Of a stretch of DNA of 44,533 nucleotides, positions 16,187 to 38,128 are shown piece by piece. The position numbers and the translations under genes are program-made. Under the pieces are notes generated by a model. The model had not been told where the DNA came from and did no database searches. It saw only the letters and a list, made by a program, of their open reading frames with translations. This DNA comes from Clostridia bacterium (GTDB taxonomy: Bacteria > Bacillota > Clostridia > Christensenellales > Aristaeellaceae). The DNA is taken from the NCBI GenBank assembly GCA_017427165.1, contig JAFRTK010000107.1, forward strand, positions 1 through 44,533. The letters are read 5' to 3'. Numbering within the stretch: the first letter of the stretch is position 1; every line of letters starts with the position of its first letter.

Positions 16187-16831
16187 CGGACCGGATTCCT
16201 CCACTTCCCATGGAACGTACAGCTCTTCACCCGGGATCATCTCGATTTTCCTGTTTGTGACCCGGTTCATGGCATCTGTAACCGAGGCCAGATCCCGCGT
16301 GCGGACAGACAGGGTAAAGGTGATGGTGGAGGCAAATTCGGGGCTTTCGATCCGGACGGGAAGACTGCCTGCGGCATGGCAAAGCGGATCCCAGCAGGAA
16401 TACGGAATATCGCACAGCAGCTGCGAAGTCAGCTCCATTTTTGCGATTCCGGCTGCCTTCAGTGCTGTTTTGCAGCCCTGTGTATAAGCTCGCACGAGGC
16501 CGCCGGTTCCCAGCAGAACGCCGCCGAAATACCGGACAACAACCACACAGCAGTTTACCACATGTGAAGATTTCATCACTTCCATAATCGGGAGCCCGGC
16601 GGTACCGCCGGGCTCTCCGTCATCACTGTACCGCATGATCCCGGAATTTTCACCGATGATATACGCGTAGCAGTGGTGTGTTGCCCCGTGATGTTGATCG
16701 CGGACAGACTGCAGGAAGGACAGGGCTTCGCTTTCTGTCGCACAGGGACACGCATAGCCGATGAAACGGCTTTTTTCAATTGTGAATTCACCGGAGGCCG
16801 ATGATTTTACGGTAATATACGAGTCTTTCAT
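16175..16831 (-). CDS. YigZ/IMPACT family protein
   Basis: The 218-residue protein has an N-terminal UPF0029/IMPACT domain (about 1-125) with [39 protein letters not shown] and [23 protein letters not shown]-terminal DUF1949-type domain follows. The family is linked to translation and proteolysis regulation in eukaryotes; the bacterial role is unclear. The start ATG overlaps the tyrS stop codon (ATGA), so it is translated as the third gene of the T-box operon. This placement with tyrosyl-tRNA synthetase may simply be read-through and is not evidence for a tyrosine role. Confidence 0.92.
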
Positions 16832-18057
16832 GCCAGCTTGATGCGGCAGAATCCCTTCTTGCCTTTTTTCAGGAGGATACTGTCCTCTTTCAGCTGCGAG
16901 ACAGAAATCTGCGCAGCCGGATCGGTCACCTTGCTGTCATCCAGGGAGACCGCGTTCTGCTCGATCTGTTTCCGGGCGTCGCTCTGGCTCTTGCAGAGAC
17001 CGGCACGGACAAGCATCGTGGAAACACGGGCATCCTCATTCAGTTCCGCTTCCGAAATCTCCAGGGTAGGAACATTCTCCATGGAAGCGCCGCCGCCGAA
17101 GAGGGAAGCGGAAGCATCCGCTGCCTTGCGGGCTTCTTCCTCGCCGTGGACCAGCTTGGTGACTTCATACGCGAGAACCTTTTTGGCTTCATTGATCTCG
17201 GAATCCCGGAGGGCACCCAGGCGGCGCACCTCATCCATGGGGAGGAAGGTCAGCAGCGCAAGGCACTTCTCCACATCTTTGTCATCGACATTCCGGAAGT
17301 ACTGATAGAACTGGTAAGGAGAAGTCTTTGCAGCATCCAGCCAGAGCGCGCCGGCTTCCGTTTTGCCCATCTTCTTGCCGTCATGGGTCAGGAGCAGCTG
17401 GAACGTACATGCAAAGGCCTTTTCGCCATCCTTTTTCCGGACCAGGTCCGCACCGCCGAGCATGTTGCTCCACTGATCGTTGCCGCCCATCTCCAGACGG
17501 CAGCCGTAGCGATGGAACAGCTCCAGGAAATCGTAGCTCTGCATCAGCATGTAGGTGAATTCCAGGAAACTGAGGCCGTTCTCGGTTGCCATACGGGCTT
17601 TGTAGCAGTCCGCCGTGAGCATTTTGTTGACGGAGAACTGGGATCCTATATCGCGCATAAACTCGATGAAGTTCAGGTGGCGCAGCCAGTCGCCGTTATT
17701 GACGATGATGGCGTTCCCTTCGCTGAAATCCAGGAAGCGGGACATCTGCTTTTTGATACTTTCCACATTGCTGTCAATCGTTTCCGTGGTCAGCATTTTC
17801 CGCATGTCGGTTTTGCCGGAGGGATCGCCGATCATGGCGGTACCGCCGCCCATCAGGGCAATGGGCTTATGGCCGGCCCGCTGCATATGTGCCATTGCCA
17901 TGATCGGGATGTAGTGGCCGATATGCAGGCTGTCCGCAGTAGGATCAAAACCGACGTAAAAGACGGTCGGATTTTTCAGCTGTTCGTAAAGCTCGTCCTC
18001 AAATGTCACCTGCGCGATAAATCCGCGCTCTTTCAGGATGTCCAGGATATGTTCCAT
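16828..18057 (-). CDS. tyrS: tyrosyl-tRNA synthetase
   Basis: TyrRS charges tRNA-Tyr with tyrosine. The 409-residue class I synthetase has [20 protein letters not shown] with the HIGH motif near residue 45-48. The tyrosine-site segment [27 protein letters not shown] follows, then [14 protein letters not shown] in the KMSKS position (bacterial TyrRS usually has KFGKT-type variants here) and a C-terminal S4 domain. ATG 18057 has AAGGAGG eight bases upstream, and upstream in-frame ATGs lack one. It follows the aminotransferase gene by 13 bases and is under the T-box leader at 19277-19513. The yigZ start overlaps its stop. Confidence 0.97.
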
Positions 18058-18070
18058 ACTTGTTTCCTCC

Positions 18071-19255
18071 TTATCGAATGGTTTGGGCAATCAGGTCTTT
18101 CAGGATGCCCATGCCGGTAATGATCTGGTCTTCCGTACTGTTGGAGAAGTTCAGCCGCAGGGTGTTTTCATGGCCGCCGCCGACACAGAAATGGGTTCCG
18201 GGGACAAAGGCCACTTTTTTCTCAATTGCCCGGGTCAGCAGGTCAAGCGCACTGATGTTTTCAGGCAGCTCAGCCCAGATGAAAAGGCCGCCTTCCGGTT
18301 TCGTAAAGGAAACGCCGCCGGGGAATGCGGAAAGCTGGTCCAGCATCAGCTTCATTTTCTTTCCGTACTCTGCGCAGATGGAAGCAATATGGGCGGGCAG
18401 CAGACTGCGGCGGATGAACTGGTCCACAACCGCTTGGTTCAGGTTGGCCGTATGAACGTCAGTGGACTGTTTGCCGACTGTGCACTTCCGGATGATGGAA
18501 GGATCGCCGGCCATGTAGCCGACGCGCAGGCCGGGAGAAATGATCTTGCTGAAGCTGCCGAGGAAAACCACCCATCCGTCTGTGTCGAAGCTCTTGATGG
18601 AAGGAAGCGGAGTCCCGGTATACCGCAGGTCACGGTACGGATCATCCTCCGCAACTACGACATGATACTCGCCGGCAAGCTCAGCAACCCGTTTCCGCCG
18701 TCCTTCCGGGAGCGTTTTACCGGTAGGATTCTGGAATGTCGGAATCGTGTAGAGCATCTTTGGATGGTACTGACGGATTTTCGCTTCGAGATCATCCGGC
18801 AGCAGGCCGTCCCCGTCACTTTCCACGGGCACCAGGTTGGCCTGATACAGTTTCATGCACTGGAGATTACCCAGGAAGGAAGGATTCTCCACCAGAATGG
18901 TGTCGCCTGGATCAATCATGGCCTTGCAGAGCAGATCCATCGCCTGGGTGGAACCGGTAACCGGCAGAACTGCCGGGATTTCACACTTCAGCATATCCGC
19001 AACATAAGCATGCAGACTCTCCAGGAAAGGCGCATATCCCTCCGTTGCCCCATACTGCAGGATCGCCTTACCGTTCTGCGCCAGGACATCGACAGCCAGA
19101 TCAGAAACCAGCCTGTCGGGAAGGGCATTCAGGGAAGGATTGCCGCCGGCAAATGAGATCATACCGGGCTGCGCAATGATCTTGAAAATTTCCCGGATGG
19201 CGCTTCCGGATACGTTGTCAAACCGGTGGGCAAAATGAATAGCGGACTGGTCCAT
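18071..19255 (-). CDS. PLP-dependent class I/II aminotransferase (aromatic or 2-aminoadipate type)
   Basis: The 394-residue fold-type I enzyme begins with [26 protein letters not shown]. It continues with [40 protein letters not shown] and the PLP lysine K237 in [17 protein letters not shown]. These are features of the MocR-like/LysN aminotransferases (aromatic, 2-aminoadipate and branched-chain substrates). It is the first gene behind a T-box leader whose best specifier is TAC, with tyrS next. I therefore infer that it helps make tyrosine or phenylalanine from their keto acids. The sequence alone does not fix the substrate. AGGAGG lies seven bases before the ATG. Confidence 0.88.
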
Positions 19256-19314: not shown

Positions 19315-19513
19315 TACCACTTCCATTTGATATTGCAGGTGACTATGCAATACCCTCATCGAACGCTGTAACCGGCGAACCGGATCCATCCTACTTGCAG
19401 CTGCTTTCAGACGATAACTCCGGGATGTACATTTCCCCGCCGGACGCTTTCTTCCACCTGCCGAAAGCTCTCTGAAGACCGTTACCGGAGAACATCTTCC
19501 CATCATCGTATTG
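19277..19513 (-). promoter_or_regulatory. T-box riboswitch leader, probably tyrosine-specific
   Basis: The minus-strand leader of about 240 bases carries the T-box core AAGTGGTACCGCGG (complement of 19311-19324), an AGAGAGC motif in the Stem I region, and the overlapping terminator. The probable specifier is TAC (complement of 19427-19429). It sits directly above a basal helix GGGA/TCCC and is followed by A, as in the well-studied glyQS leader. Uncharged tRNA-Tyr would pair with it and prevent termination (known mechanism). The downstream genes, an aminotransferase and tyrS, support tyrosine. Confidence 0.88.
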
Positions 19514-19518
19514 GTGAT

Positions 19519-33817: not shown

Positions 33818-33859
33818 AAAGACCTCCTTCACGGTAACCGTGTGAAGGAGGCCTTTTTG
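33818..33859. terminator. bidirectional intrinsic terminator
   Basis: CCTCCTTCAC / GTGAAGGAGG (10 perfect pairs, 33824-33833 and 33843-33852) is followed by CCTTTTT on the plus strand and by TCTTTTAT on the minus strand. It lies between the convergent MreB-like gene and the acyl-CoA synthetase fusion gene and can serve both. Confidence 0.9.
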
Positions 33860-33870
33860 ATTTCCTGCGG

Positions 33871-36387
33871 TCAATTCTTTCCGCCGCCGGCGGTATCAAT
33901 TCCTGCGGCACCGACCAGGCCGAGGCGTTCAGCTGCTTCTTCCCGCATTTTGTATTTCAACACTTTGCCGGCTGCATTCATCGGGAACGCATCCATGAAT
34001 TCAATATACTGCGGAACCTTGTGGCGGGCCATATGGCTCTTGATGTATTCGGTCATTTCCTCTGCGGTCAGGGAAGCGCCTTCCTTTTTGATAATGCACG
34101 CCATCACCGCTTCACCGTACCGCGCGTCCGGAACACCGATCACCTGTACATCGGCAACCGCCGGATGCGTATAGATGAATTCCTCGATTTCCTTCGGATA
34201 GATATTCTCGCCGCCGCGGATGATCATATCCTTCAGACGGCCGGTGATCAGATAGGTTCCGTCCGGGTTCCGCCGTGCCAGGTCACCGGAGTGGAGCCAG
34301 CCGTCCGCGTCAATTGTCGCGCTGGTGGCATCCGGCATTTTATAGTAGCCCTTCATGATATTGTAGCCGCGGGAGCAGAATTCGCCGTCCTGGCCGTCCG
34401 GCAGTTCTTTTCCGGTTTCGGGGTCGATCACCTTGCACTGGACGTGGGGGAACGCATATCCGACTGTTTCGGTACGGAGCTCCAGTGAATCAGTCCAGGC
34501 GGACATTGTGCTTCCGGGGGAAGACTCGGTCTGCCCGTACACGCTGACAATTCCGCGCATATTCATTTCATCGGGCCGGGCAGCCCGCTTCATGAGCTCA
34601 GGGGGACATCCGGATCCGGCCATAATGCCTGTCCGCATGTAGGAGAAATCGGTTTTCCGGTAATCCTCATGGTTAAACATGGCGATGAACATGGTCGGGA
34701 CACCGTGGAAGCAGGTAATCCGTTCCTGGTTGATACATGCCAGGGAGTTCTTGGCAGAGAAATAGGGAAGCGGACAGAGTGTTGTCCCGTGGGTCATGGA
34801 GGCGGTCATGGCCAGTACCATGCCGAAGCAGTGGAACATCGGAACCTGGATCATCATGCGGTCCGCGGTGGACAGCCCCATCCGGTCGCCGATACATTTA
34901 CCGTCATTGACGACGTTGTAATGGGTCAGCATGACGCCCTTGGGGAAGCCGGTAGTGCCGGATGTATACTGCATGTTGCACACATCATCCGGTTTTACGC
35001 GTTCCGCCATTGCGTTCAGCGTCTCATCGGTGACGGAATCAGCACGGCGCATCGCTTCCTCAAAGGTGAGGCATCCGCTCTGCGTAAACCCGACGGTGAT
35101 GACATTGCGGAGGAAAGGAAGCCGCTTGCAATGCAGCGGTTCGCCGGGTTTCGATACCGCGATTTCAGGGCAGAGTTCATTGATGATTGCGCGGTAATTG
35201 CTGTCCAGCGCACTTTCAATCATAACCAGCGTATGCGTATCGCTCTGCCGGAGCAGGTAATCGGCTTCATGGATTTTATAGGCGGTATTGACGGTTACCA
35301 GTACAGCACCGATCCGGGCGGATGCCCAGAACGCGATATACCACGCGGGAACATTGGTAGCCCATACAGCCACCTTGGTCCCGGCTTTTACCCCCAGGGA
35401 GATCAGGGCTTTTGCAAAGCGGTTGACATCATCACGGAATTCGGTGTAGGTACGGATATAATCCAGCGTCGTGTATTTGAAGGCATACTGATCCGGAAAT
35501 TCCTCCGCCATGCGGTCCAGTACCTGGCCGAATGTCAGGTCCACCAGTTCATCCTTTTTCCATACATATTTGCCAGTGCCGTCATGGTTGAAATAAAGGG
35601 ATTTCTTTTTGCCCTTCGGATTGTCAAAACGGCCCATGTAGTTGAGGAAATGCGCGAAGATGATTTCCCGGTCCGGAATATCCTCCATCCATTCCGTTTT
35701 CCACTCCAGGGAAATAAATCCGTTGTAGTCGATGGAAGACAGCGCGTTCATCATATCCTGTACGGGAATTGTGCCTTCGCCGATCAGGTTGTAATTCAGG
35801 TCGTCATCTGAGTCCCGCAGGTGGACGTGGTGCACATATCCGCCCAGGTTGCGGATGGTGGTATCCGGGGTTTCGTGGAAATCCCGGTAGGGGTGGTGCA
35901 TGTCCCACAGCGCTCCCAGCTCATCGCACGCGTATTCGTCCATCAGTTTCCTGAGCTTGCCGGTATCCGCAAAAATCCCGACTGTTTTAATCAGCATGCA
36001 GACGCCTTTTTCGGAAAACTGCGGAATCAGCCGGTCAATGCGTTCCCGGATGCGTTCATCATCGTCATGCAGGGCGCAAACGGCGACATACGGGATTTTC
36101 ATCGTGGCGGCTGTATCGATCAGCTCAGGGATGAAACCCGTTTCATCCTCTGCGGAGCCGAGGTCAATGCAGGTATCGAGGCACGGAATCGTCAGATGGT
36201 GCTCCCGCAGCTCCCGCAGGGTTTCATTCCGGTGAAACTTGTGAAAAACACCACTCCGGTCTGTCAGGGAAGGACATTTATGCAGGTTGTAAACTTCAAT
36301 CCCCTGGAACCGGAGTTCGGAGGCATCTTTTACCTGTTCCGGCCAGGGAAGCTCTTTCCAGCCGCGTGTTGAAAAAGAAAGCTTCAT
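33871..36387 (-). CDS. fusion of a sugar-isomerase-like TIM barrel and an AMP-forming acyl-CoA synthetase
   Basis: One continuous 838-residue frame holds two domains. Residues 1-265 are a xylose-isomerase/AP-endonuclease-2-like TIM barrel: STRGWKELPWPEQ, LWDMHHPY (D162), HVHLRD (H189), GEGTIPVQDM and ISLEWK (E228). The position expected for the first metal-binding Glu reads LIKTVG (K134). Residues about 285-838 are an acyl-CoA/AMP-binding domain with the P-loop YTSGTTGFPKG (474-484), YGQTE, HSGD (699-702), GRLKDMIIRGGENIYP and the catalytic lysine K808 in AAGKVLKYK. The adenylation half looks intact; the barrel may not be. The ATG overlaps the stop of the upstream LeuA-like gene (ATGA). Both are downstream of a T-box leader. 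Substrates are unknown. Confidence 0.85.
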   Translation of the reverse strand: MKLSFSTRGWKELPWPEQVKDASELRFQGIEVYNLHKCPSLTDRSGVFHKFHRNETLRELREHHLTIPCLDTCIDLGSAEDETGFIPELIDTAATMKIPYVAVCALHDDDERIRERIDRLIPQFSEKGVCMLIKTVGIFADTGKLRKLMDEYACDELGALWDMHHPYRDFHETPDTTIRNLGGYVHHVHLRDSDDDLNYNLIGEGTIPVQDMMNALSSIDYNGFISLEWKTEWMEDIPDREIIFAHFLNYMGRFDNPKGKKKSLYFNHDGTGKYVWKKDELVDLTFGQVLDRMAEEFPDQYAFKYTTLDYIRTYTEFRDDVNRFAKALISLGVKAGTKVAVWATNVPAWYIAFWASARIGAVLVTVNTAYKIHEADYLLRQSDTHTLVMIESALDSNYRAIINELCPEIAVSKPGEPLHCKRLPFLRNVITVGFTQSGCLTFEEAMRRADSVTDETLNAMAERVKPDDVCNMQYTSGTTGFPKGVMLTHYNVVNDGKCIGDRMGLSTADRMMIQVPMFHCFGMVLAMTASMTHGTTLCPLPYFSAKNSLACINQERITCFHGVPTMFIAMFNHEDYRKTDFSYMRTGIMAGSGCPPELMKRAARPDEMNMRGIVSVYGQTESSPGSTMSAWTDSLELRTETVGYAFPHVQCKVIDPETGKELPDGQDGEFCSRGYNIMKGYYKMPDATSATIDADGWLHSGDLARRNPDGTYLITGRLKDMIIRGGENIYPKEIEEFIYTHPAVADVQVIGVPDARYGEAVMACIIKKEGASLTAEEMTEYIKSHMARHKVPQYIEFMDAFPMNAAGKVLKYKMREEAAERLGLVGAAGIDTAGGGKN

Positions 36388-37802
36388 GCTTCTTCCTCCT
36401 CGTAAACGATCTTGTTCAGGGCATTCATGTAGGCCAGGATTCCGGCACCCACGATATCCGTTGAAATACCGCGCCCGGAGTACAGTTTGCCTTCATGGCG
36501 AAGCTTGACGATGGTTTCACCGACTGCTTCACGGCCTTCGGTAATGGCCTGGATCTGGAAGTCTTCCAGCTCAAAATGACGGCCGGTTGCCTTTTCAATG
36601 GAATTGAACGCCGCGGCAATGGAACCATCCCCGACGGCCATTCCCTCGATCACCCGGTCATGGTACATGAGTTTCATATGCGCCATGGCATTGATGGTAT
36701 TGCCGGTATTGATAACGTACTGGATATCATGGTACACAGGCGGAACCTGCATGGCTTCGGTTGCCACAATCGCATCCAGCTCCCGGAGGGAAATCAGGTC
36801 TTTTTTCTCCGCAATTTCGGAAAAACACTGCCAGACCTTTTCCATATCATCGGCGGTCAGGTCATATCCCAGCTTATCCACGGCCTTCATAACGGATTCG
36901 CGGGAATCATGGGTGCTCAGCATCACGCCGGAATCATGGTCATCCGCCCCGGTTTCGGCAGCGACGGAACGGCTGAGTCCGGTGCGGCAAAGCATTTCGA
37001 TTTTGCTGGTGAGGTTCCGGATCTGCTCGGTGCCGATCCGGCAGTGTACATCAAACTGATTGGCTTTGATATCCAGGATCCGGACGATATTCATCAGGGA
37101 GATGGCGTTGGTCCGGAAGGAAGCGGCCTTGATTTCCCGGATGCCGGAACGGACAGCGGAGACAGCACATGCGTCCGCCATATTCATCTGGTCTGTGCAG
37201 GAAAATCCGACAGTAACCCCGCTCAGGCATTCAATATCCTGATACAGGGAATTGATGAAGGCGGCGGTTTCATCCGGGAGCATCGCCCCTGCTGTATCGC
37301 ACAGCGTAATCGTCCGGGCACCGGCGCTGACGGCCTCTGTGATAATGCTGCGCAGGAAGGCAGTATCGCTGCGGGTGGCGTCTTCCGCGATGAACTCCAC
37401 GTCCTCCGTGAATTCACGGCATTTCCGGATGGTATCGGCAACCGCGGCAATCATAGCCTTCGGTTTCATATGGGAAAGGTATTCCATCTGCACCGAGCTG
37501 ACAGGAGCCGGCACCTGGAGGCGCGGACGGACCGCATTTTTGAGTGCTTCCCGGGCAATCCGCACACTTTCCTCATTCAAAGCCACAGGCACGGCGATCC
37601 TGGAACTGGAAACCGCCGTACAGACGGATTTGATCAGCAGGCTGTCAATTTTAACCTGCCGGATTTCCTCCATTTCAATCAGGTCCACATTCAGACGGTC
37701 AATCAGGCGGCAGAGCTCTAGCTTCTCCCGAAAACTGAGGTCGGGAAGACCGTTTTTCTGCCGAAGCGTGCAGTCTGTAATGGTCATGATCTGTTTTTCC
37801 AT
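36384..37802 (-). CDS. isopropylmalate synthase-like protein lacking canonical metal ligands, with LeuA regulatory domain
   Basis: The 472-residue protein aligns with 2-isopropylmalate/homocitrate synthases: TDCTLRQKNG near the N-terminus, EDATRSD (140-146), CDTAGAMLPDE (168-178), and a C-terminal LeuA dimer domain (about 355-465) including GDGSIAAAFNSIEKATG, TEGREAVGETIVKL and GRGISTDIVGAGILAYMNALNKI. The metal site is gone. The usual LRDGEQ reads LRQKNG (Q15), and the usual HCHND reads SCTDQ, so both metal-binding His are S201 and T203. The NGIGERAGN segment is also not recognisable. Condensation by the known mechanism is therefore unlikely (inference). ATG 37802 has AGGAGG ten bases upstream, immediately after the T-box terminator. 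The downstream fusion gene starts inside its stop codon. Confidence 0.82.
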   Translation of the reverse strand: MEKQIMTITDCTLRQKNGLPDLSFREKLELCRLIDRLNVDLIEMEEIRQVKIDSLLIKSVCTAVSSSRIAVPVALNEESVRIAREALKNAVRPRLQVPAPVSSVQMEYLSHMKPKAMIAAVADTIRKCREFTEDVEFIAEDATRSDTAFLRSIITEAVSAGARTITLCDTAGAMLPDETAAFINSLYQDIECLSGVTVGFSCTDQMNMADACAVSAVRSGIREIKAASFRTNAISLMNIVRILDIKANQFDVHCRIGTEQIRNLTSKIEMLCRTGLSRSVAAETGADDHDSGVMLSTHDSRESVMKAVDKLGYDLTADDMEKVWQCFSEIAEKKDLISLRELDAIVATEAMQVPPVYHDIQYVINTGNTINAMAHMKLMYHDRVIEGMAVGDGSIAAAFNSIEKATGRHFELEDFQIQAITEGREAVGETIVKLRHEGKLYSGRGISTDIVGAGILAYMNALNKIVYEEEEA

Positions 37803-37820
37803 ATCCGAAAACCCTCCTGA

Positions 37821-37854
37821 AAAATAAAAACCCTGAAGCAAATATGCGTCAGGG
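37821..37854 (-). terminator. T-box attenuator terminator, LeuA-like operon
   Basis: On the minus strand CCCTGA-GCA / TGC-TCAGGG (six outer and three inner pairs with one mismatch) is followed by TTTTTATTTTT. It is just downstream of the T-box core. Confidence 0.85.
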
Positions 37855-38093
37855 ACGAAATCAATCCGCGGTACCACCCATTTTACTGCCGGAAGGCAGT
37901 CACTCTCGGGCTCCAACAAGCCCACAGCCGATTACGGGGCATCCGGGTTCCATTACTGATGCATCCGCATGTTCACAGAACCAACTCAGGAAGCAGTGAC
38001 TTTCCGGCTTTGTACCGCCTCGCAGCGACCGGCGGCTCTCTGAAATCAACGCGGGAAGCTTCATTTCCTTCATCGTCATTCATGTTAAATTCA
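37821..38093 (-). promoter_or_regulatory. T-box riboswitch leader of the LeuA-like operon
   Basis: The minus strand has the consensus T-box core GGGTGGTACCGCGG (complement of 37866-37879), an AGAGAGCC motif in Stem I, and a terminator hairpin downstream. The specifier is not certain. By analogy with the glyQS pattern GAAA-NNN-A it would be GTC (valine, complement of 37998-38000). By distance from the helix AGGAA/TTCCT it could instead be CTG (leucine, complement of 37994-37996). Either fits a branched-chain amino acid theme. Confidence 0.88.
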
Positions 38094-38099
38094 AGCGAA

Positions 38100-38128
38100 A
38101 TCCTATCATAAACGGACCGATGTGTCAA
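38100..38128 (-). promoter_or_regulatory. promoter of the LeuA-like T-box operon
   Basis: On the minus strand a perfect TTGACA (38128-38123), 17 bases and TAGGAT (38105-38100). It diverges from the phoH promoter about 70 bases away. Confidence 0.72.

Follow-up and report, generated by a model that had tools for sequence, protein, structure and literature searches.

A T-box-controlled operon joining a LeuA homologue without catalytic residues to an acyl-CoA ligase: a likely leucine branch of amino acid synthesis from branched short-chain fatty acids

What would a bacterium make with a leucine-responsive RNA leader, a homologue of 2-isopropylmalate synthase (LeuA) that has lost its catalytic residues, and an acyl-coenzyme A (CoA) ligase fused to a TIM barrel, all placed in one transcription unit? 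Such an operon lies on the minus strand of the window, which is the whole 44,533-nucleotide stretch of contig JAFRTK010000107.1 of a Clostridia bacterium analysed here; its first gene is called LeuX below. We consider it likely, with considerable confidence, that the operon constitutes the leucine branch of a route in which branched short-chain fatty acids are converted into branched-chain amino acids by CoA ligation, reductive carboxylation and transamination. This reading starts from features that are observed directly, namely the leader, its specifier codon, the pairing of the two genes, their neighbours and the pathway genes that were not found in carrier genomes. The parts of the operon are as follows.

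38100..38128, minus strand: sigma-70-like promoter, TTGACA-17-TAGGAT with TG before the second hexamer (consensus match only, 10/12)
37848..38082, minus strand: T-box leader RNA (RF00230; 98.8 bits, E 1e-20, gathering score 93; stem I covariation)
37994..37996, minus strand: specifier codon CUG (leucine), read by eye in aligned stem I sequences
37821..37854, minus strand: leader terminator CCCTGA...TCAGGG plus T run, alternative to the T-box antiterminator, read by eye
36384..37802, minus strand: LeuX, a LeuA homologue of 472 amino acids (aa), with an HMGL-like barrel without catalytic residues and a LeuA_dimer (leucine regulatory) domain
33871..36387, minus strand: TIM-barrel/acyl-CoA ligase fusion of 838 aa, assigned from profile matches
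33823..33851, both strands: bidirectional terminator hairpin of 11 pairs

LeuX starts at 37802, and its open reading frame (ORF) overlaps that of the ligase by ATGA at 36384-36387. Promoter-like sites in the region number 3 (4.1 expected from shuffles) and terminator-like sites 4 (4.5 expected); as neither is commoner than in shuffled sequence, both parts are assigned from position and form. The loop of the leader terminator (~12) exceeds the limit of the hairpin scan, and the element is hence absent from the scan list. An earlier note on this DNA had described one promoter-like site, one T-box, two genes joined by ATGA and a closing bidirectional hairpin. All of these were confirmed, the ORFs lying where it had placed them.

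The leader indicates which amino acid is sensed. Binding of uncharged tRNA to a T-box leader lets transcription continue into the genes behind it, and the earlier note had expected a shortage of a single amino acid to induce the operon; the specifiers identify that amino acid as leucine. The RF00230 match comprises stem I, antiterminator and T-box sequence, and the stem I covariation of 21 leaders scores 0.738 versus 0.285 in shuffles, a value reached by none of 500 shuffles. Among loci L004-L033, 22 of 30 contain an RF00230 match at E 0.01 or better, five of the 22 falling under the gathering score. The specifier is CUC or CUG in 21/21 aligned LeuX leaders (stem I position read by eye), CUG, CUC or CUU in 62/62 leaders upstream of LeuX in loci L034-L113, and CUC or CUG in the 24 leaders (24/24) found among 29 class-level LeuX loci; every LeuX leader read carries a CUN specifier. 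T-boxes are likewise present upstream of most loci that hold the pair, a Leu T-box having been found for 62 of the 80 LeuX genes in L034-L113. A T-box before leuA is already known in Geobacter and Pelobacter, as a passage of PubMed Central (PMC) article PMC2494555 states. A second T-box of the window, at 19415-19515 (minus strand), scores 46.5 bits with the stem I model; its specifier is UAC (Tyr), and it precedes a pyridoxal phosphate aminotransferase (18071-19255) and a tyrosyl-tRNA synthetase (16828-18090), the proteins being named by eye.

Co-occurrence of the two genes extends well beyond the window. The ligase directly follows LeuX in 30/30 loci of the order, in 80/80 loci from named records and in 30/30 class-level loci, the window among them; the pair is adjacent in all 140 loci, a total in which the three sets may share species and the window is counted twice. 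Five additional LeuX rows (G237, G275, G338, G400, G437) were checked for pairing and for IlvC; four are followed by the TIM ligase and the fifth is cut by the contig end. Among the record titles of the best 80 of at least 550 records, 48 name a ruminant, as counted by hand.

Profile matches suggest that LeuX has kept the fold of LeuA, as the earlier note had stated, and an alignment shows that the metal site, which the note had already described as missing, and other catalytic residues are lost. HMGL-like and LeuA_dimer profiles match LeuX and likewise 30/30 relatives, and its best NCBIfam LeuA equivalog score is 272.5 bits, under the cut-off of 532. In an alignment of 30 LeuX proteins with 8 LeuA from the same order, the most frequent LeuX residues at the two H-x-H metal positions are not His, no His being seen there, and gaps stand at the RAGN positions in 29 or 30 of 30 and across the NAFAHESGIHQHG block, which includes the catalytic His, in 30/30. 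Five further LeuX genes are also without H-x-H and the catalytic-His block (four have letters over both regions). The residues of the regulatory domain (GxGP-DA, GxEA, GxGxSTD) are mostly retained in the 30 LeuX. In the barrel (residues 1-300) the majority fraction averages 0.49 and in the regulatory domain (residues 301-472) 0.70, with invariant positions at 11/300 and 27/172, respectively. An HMGL-like protein is also encoded at L001 (G000:C67), in an open frame of 472 aa adjoining an aminotransferase; by eye, it is not LeuA.

The profiles AP_endonuc_2, AMP-binding and AMP-binding_C all match the second protein, in agreement with its earlier description as a sugar-isomerase-like barrel combined with an adenylate-forming ligase. 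The xylose-isomerase-like barrel covers residues ~1-275 and the AMP-forming ligase residues ~276-838. Two lysines of the ligase are retained, P-loop K483 in 32/32 relatives and C-terminal K808 in 31/31 with letters there. The barrel positions compared, which we take to be the metal ligands of xylose-isomerase-like enzymes (with Glu presumably at the K134 position in related isomerases), hold K134 in 21/32 relatives (Glu in 9), D162 in 23/32, H189 in 28/32 and E228 in 24/32. With the metal-ligand positions varying in this way among the 32 relatives, a working isomerase is unsupported. Since the ligase lysines are kept and the key residues of both barrels are lost or variable, the ligase looks live, whereas the LeuX barrel and the TIM barrel of the ligase look retired. 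As to whether the ligase belongs to a characterised acid-activating family, it reaches none of the cut-offs of the 25 NCBIfam families shown. Directly 3' of the TIM ligase, 12 of 58 loci with room encode a pyruvate-type single-chain ferredoxin oxidoreductase (TIGR02176 in the one checked; for example, L058:11989-15519 (+)), which may act on 4-methyl-2-oxopentanoate.

Genomic neighborhood analysis places the pair among genes of branched-chain metabolism. Further T-boxes near LeuX, located with the stem I model, have an AMP ligase as the next gene in 33/39 cases for Ile specifiers (ATC/AUC) and in 23/23 cases for Val specifiers (GTC/GTA, one codon re-read by hand); the remaining six Ile T-boxes have <2.1 kb of sequence left, and three of these show a ligase-cluster ORF begun. 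A tree of the AMP domains (171 rows, with the L115 rows, contained in L177, excluded) splits into a TIM clade of 89 rows and another of 82; within the latter, 37 of the 40 Ile-T-box ligases form one group (support 0.997). VorABC, an aminotransferase, LeuX and all three ligases occur in operons or operon runs in L177, L120, L121, L130 and L122. The gene order of L177 is T-box(Ile), ligase, ligase, ParA-like, VorB, thiamine pyrophosphate (TPP) subunit, gamma subunit, aminotransferase, LeuX and TIM ligase. In L120, L121, L122 and L130, a Leu T-box stands before LeuX and the TIM ligase, Ile and Val T-boxes each stand before one ligase, and VorABC and the aminotransferase adjoin (the latter running off the stretch end in L122). 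Ligase, branched-chain 2-oxoacid:ferredoxin oxidoreductase and aminotransferase are thus found together in several loci. The window's genome carries a Val T-box ligase (G000:C40), an Ile T-box ligase (G000:C46) and VorABC (G000:C79), all unlinked to LeuX; many relatives have VorABC next to the operon.

The family assignments of these neighbours are supported by their scores. VorB of the window's genome (2-ketoisovalerate:ferredoxin oxidoreductase) reaches 567 bits versus a cut-off of 399, and the branched-chain aminotransferase of L177 reaches 481.7 bits versus 307; an indolepyruvate type for the adjoining oxidoreductase was replaced by VorB once the family score proved to be above the cut-off. 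Among solved structures, 3etc comes closest to the Ile ligase (618 bits); for the Ile and Val ligases encoded in the window's genome, the best-matching model is MbcS (443 and 447 bits, under its cut-off of 850). Helix-turn-helix (HTH) and cupin domains are fused in front of the Val and Ile ligases of this genome (L164:8600-10894, L166:6080-8350 (-)), which suggests an in-protein sensor comparable to that proposed for LeuX; a stand-alone form of ~560 aa occurs in some genomes. VorB is immediately preceded, in the same orientation, by a ParA/CbiA-like P-loop protein of ~224 aa in the case of 48 of 49 ParA-like matches (for example, L177:10068-10739 (+)).

Carrier genomes frequently show no standard route to leucine. 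Among 200 genomes of the order, 33 have LeuX and 55 a true LeuA (a split read from the result rows), and 36 of the 55 were used for comparisons of LeuC, IlvC, VorB and the MacS-like ligase, with presence of LeuC and IlvC defined as passing the family cut-off; outside the order, 35 LeuX and 35 LeuA genomes were hand-chosen, five LeuX-like rows being first omitted. Within the order, LeuC is present in 0/33 LeuX versus 27/36 LeuA genomes (Fisher 9e-12) and IlvC in 0/33 versus 23/36 (Fisher 2e-9); outside it, the counts are 3/35 versus 24/35 for LeuC (Fisher 3e-7) and 3/35 versus 32/35 for IlvC (Fisher 8e-13), all four values being uncorrected for relatedness. IlvC is also present in 2/5 of the further LeuX genomes (G237, G400), which brings the pooled counts to 5/73 LeuX versus 55/71 LeuA genomes for IlvC and 3/68 versus 51/71 for LeuC. 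The usual leucine pathway thus seems to be commonly, not always, missing in LeuX genomes. The MacS-like ligase is found in 33/33 LeuX versus 26/36 LeuA genomes. Its presence in 12 of the 13 LeuA genomes without IlvC (such as G002, G007 and G072) raises the prospect that these may draw ketoisovalerate from isobutyrate and then use ordinary LeuA.

From these observations we infer the substrates, the direction of the reactions and the role of leucine-bound LeuX as a restraint on the ligase. Under leucine shortage, uncharged tRNA-Leu would bind the T-box (CUG here) and permit read-through into both genes. The ligase would then convert isovalerate, ATP and CoA into isovaleryl-CoA, its presumed product; VorABC, judged by family and context, would use CO2 and reduced ferredoxin to turn isovaleryl-CoA into 4-methyl-2-oxopentanoate, from which the branched-chain aminotransferase would form leucine. 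The sister ligases controlled by the Ile and Val T-boxes would serve the same route from 2-methylbutyrate to isoleucine and from isobutyrate to valine, each ligase usually standing under the T-box of its own predicted amino acid, and the leucine-binding domain of LeuX would provide feedback on the neighbouring ligase. The earlier note had offered either a pathway activating an amino-acid-derived acid as a CoA ester or a stress module, with the LeuA-like protein as a sensor or altered enzyme. Its pathway half is supported, since the leucine specifier, VorABC, the aminotransferase, the Ile and Val T-box ligases and the frequent lack of LeuC and IlvC together point to biosynthesis; the stress module, like an unrelated acid as substrate, is rejected on account of the leucine specifier and the pathway setting.

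Other products and directions have to be weighed against this leucine-forming route. Degradation of leucine to isovalerate for energy is scarcely credible: VorB is common in relatives with true LeuA, where an oxidative role is likely, but induction by leucine starvation and an AMP-forming ligase both fit synthesis. AMP-forming ligases normally spend ATP. It is hardly more probable, and still very improbable, that the operon feeds isovaleryl-CoA into branched membrane fatty acids or some product other than leucine. Two points favour a supply of lipids: both the Ile and the Val ligase of this genome match MbcS best, although below its cut-off, and PMC10026030 reports that the Staphylococcus aureus enzyme activates 2-methylbutyrate and isobutyrate for use in lipids, and isovalerate poorly. 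This reading fits badly with a leucine T-box, with the presence of VorABC and aminotransferase genes in these operons and with the usual lack of LeuC and IlvC.

The role of LeuX is less settled than the pathway. Sequence conservation suggests that it is probably a leucine-binding pseudoenzyme restraining the ligase. That the dead LeuA gives feedback on the adjoining ligase, perhaps via the eroded TIM barrel of the ligase itself, has about even chances of being right. The full proposal is put forward more tentatively, at slightly under an even chance: LeuA would have turned into a dead leucine-sensing regulatory subunit that gates an isovalerate-CoA ligase. What was once the committed enzyme of a pathway now lost would thereby exert feedback control over the replacement pathway, under a Leu/Ile/Val T-box trio. 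It is unlikely, but a reading to be kept in mind, that the ligase is the right one for the pathway and acts on another acid, or that LeuX is a scaffold joining the ligase and VorABC and not a leucine sensor; the TIM ligase always comes after LeuX in the loci examined and its TIM metal site is eroded (K134 in 21/32, E228 kept in 24/32), yet the leucine-regulatory domain is the best-conserved part of LeuX. We regard it as quite improbable that LeuX remains an enzyme with altered chemistry, for instance transferring acyl groups or catalysing hydrolysis, without a metal, with a CoA ester or keto acid of the pathway as substrate. Seven residues of its barrel (S102, M106, Y108, K113, D141, A142 and R144) are invariant over 30 relatives, which implies that some part of the barrel is still under selection; against an enzyme stand the loss of H-x-H, RAGN and the NAFAHESGIHQHG block and the lower conservation of the barrel than of the regulatory domain.

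Several observations weigh against the preferred reading of a leucine branch controlled through LeuX. No Leu T-box was found at 18 of the 80 LeuX loci. In nine of these, an aminotransferase gene lies 139-228 bases upstream on the same strand, preceded by the Vor gamma subunit in eight, and LeuX is therefore probably part of a longer operon there; among the remainder, one has 87 bases of room and eight are unexplained. Three Ile-T-box ligases (L049, L066, L067), each the one such ligase visible at its locus, group with Val ligases. The Leu ligase resembles MacS and MbcS less than it does generic fatty-acyl ligases (PRK12583, 663 bits, under the cut-off of 832). In the window's genus (L126-L128), the stretches around LeuX are without VorABC, and the search of the window's genome covered the ligases and VorABC. 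VorB is present in 32/33 LeuX genomes and also in 26/36 LeuA genomes, so that it was discarded as a marker of the system. G225, G276 and G511 carry LeuX and pass both the LeuC and the IlvC cut-offs, while G237 and G400 hold genuine LeuX-ligase pairs together with LeuA and IlvC; these five genomes have either both routes side by side or contamination. G142 contains part of a second, LeuA-like gene, G414 an IlvC fragment (130.7 bits, below the cut-off), and the LeuX genomes G065, G097, G179 and G192 a LeuC-like gene at 426-439 bits (cut-off 611). Several LeuA genomes outside the order show only sub-cut-off LeuC, which means that the LeuC cut-off undercounts; the LeuA/LeuX screen outside the order scored at most four candidates in most genomes, and LeuA beside LeuX may be missed by it. 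Finally, domain conservation is the one line of evidence from which a sensing role of LeuX is suggested.

If the leucine-forming route is correct, leucine is most likely rebuilt from gut isovaleric acid in many uncultured gut and rumen bacteria. The T-box-tagged ligases would be candidate genes for the activating step, their leaders already indicating which acid goes with which amino acid, and they suggest which uncultured gut bacteria would depend on a growth medium containing isovalerate, 2-methylbutyrate and isobutyrate. LeuX would offer a case of an enzyme retained as a regulator after the loss of its own pathway.

Both the chemistry and T-box control are already known; the gene set and LeuX were not met in the literature searched, as no gene set for the route, T-box link or description of LeuX was found in the open-licence PMC literature. 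Allison and co-workers reportedly traced, in 1962 and 1966, isovalerate to leucine, 2-methylbutyrate to isoleucine and isobutyrate to valine in the rumen by labelling. The operon shares with that rumen route the predicted substrates, the reductive carboxylation and the products, as well as the habitat, a ruminant being named in most of the titles counted above; it differs in that the rumen route is known from labelling, whereas the operon route is read from genes alone. A passage of PMC7356843 cites the carboxylation of isovalerate to leucine in rumen bacteria as known since the 1960s, passages of PMC10658910 and PMC2812497 name the carboxylation route for methanogens as well, and one in PMC7709123 states that formation of the amino acids from branched acids, as a reverse reaction, "was not proven yet". 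Among individual proteins, LeuX shares with LeuA the HMGL-like barrel and the LeuA_dimer domain; unlike LeuA, it is without the catalytic residues and one whole block, and it is found mostly in genomes where LeuC and IlvC were not detected. Two known ligases for small branched acids are also related: MacS of Methanosarcina acetivorans, whose structure 3etc is the closest solved one to the Ile ligase, and MbcS of Staphylococcus aureus, which represents the named family closest to both the Ile and the Val ligase. The 3etc enzyme prefers 2-methylbutyrate, according to a passage of PMC10455477. The ligases described here differ from both: those behind the Ile and Val T-boxes of the window's genome begin with fused HTH and cupin domains, and the Leu ligase, with its TIM barrel, falls into the other clade. 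The activation of aryl acids in methanogens together with indolepyruvate:ferredoxin oxidoreductase is alike in using a ligase and a ferredoxin oxidoreductase for amino acid synthesis, and different in acting on other acids and in not being known to have a T-box.

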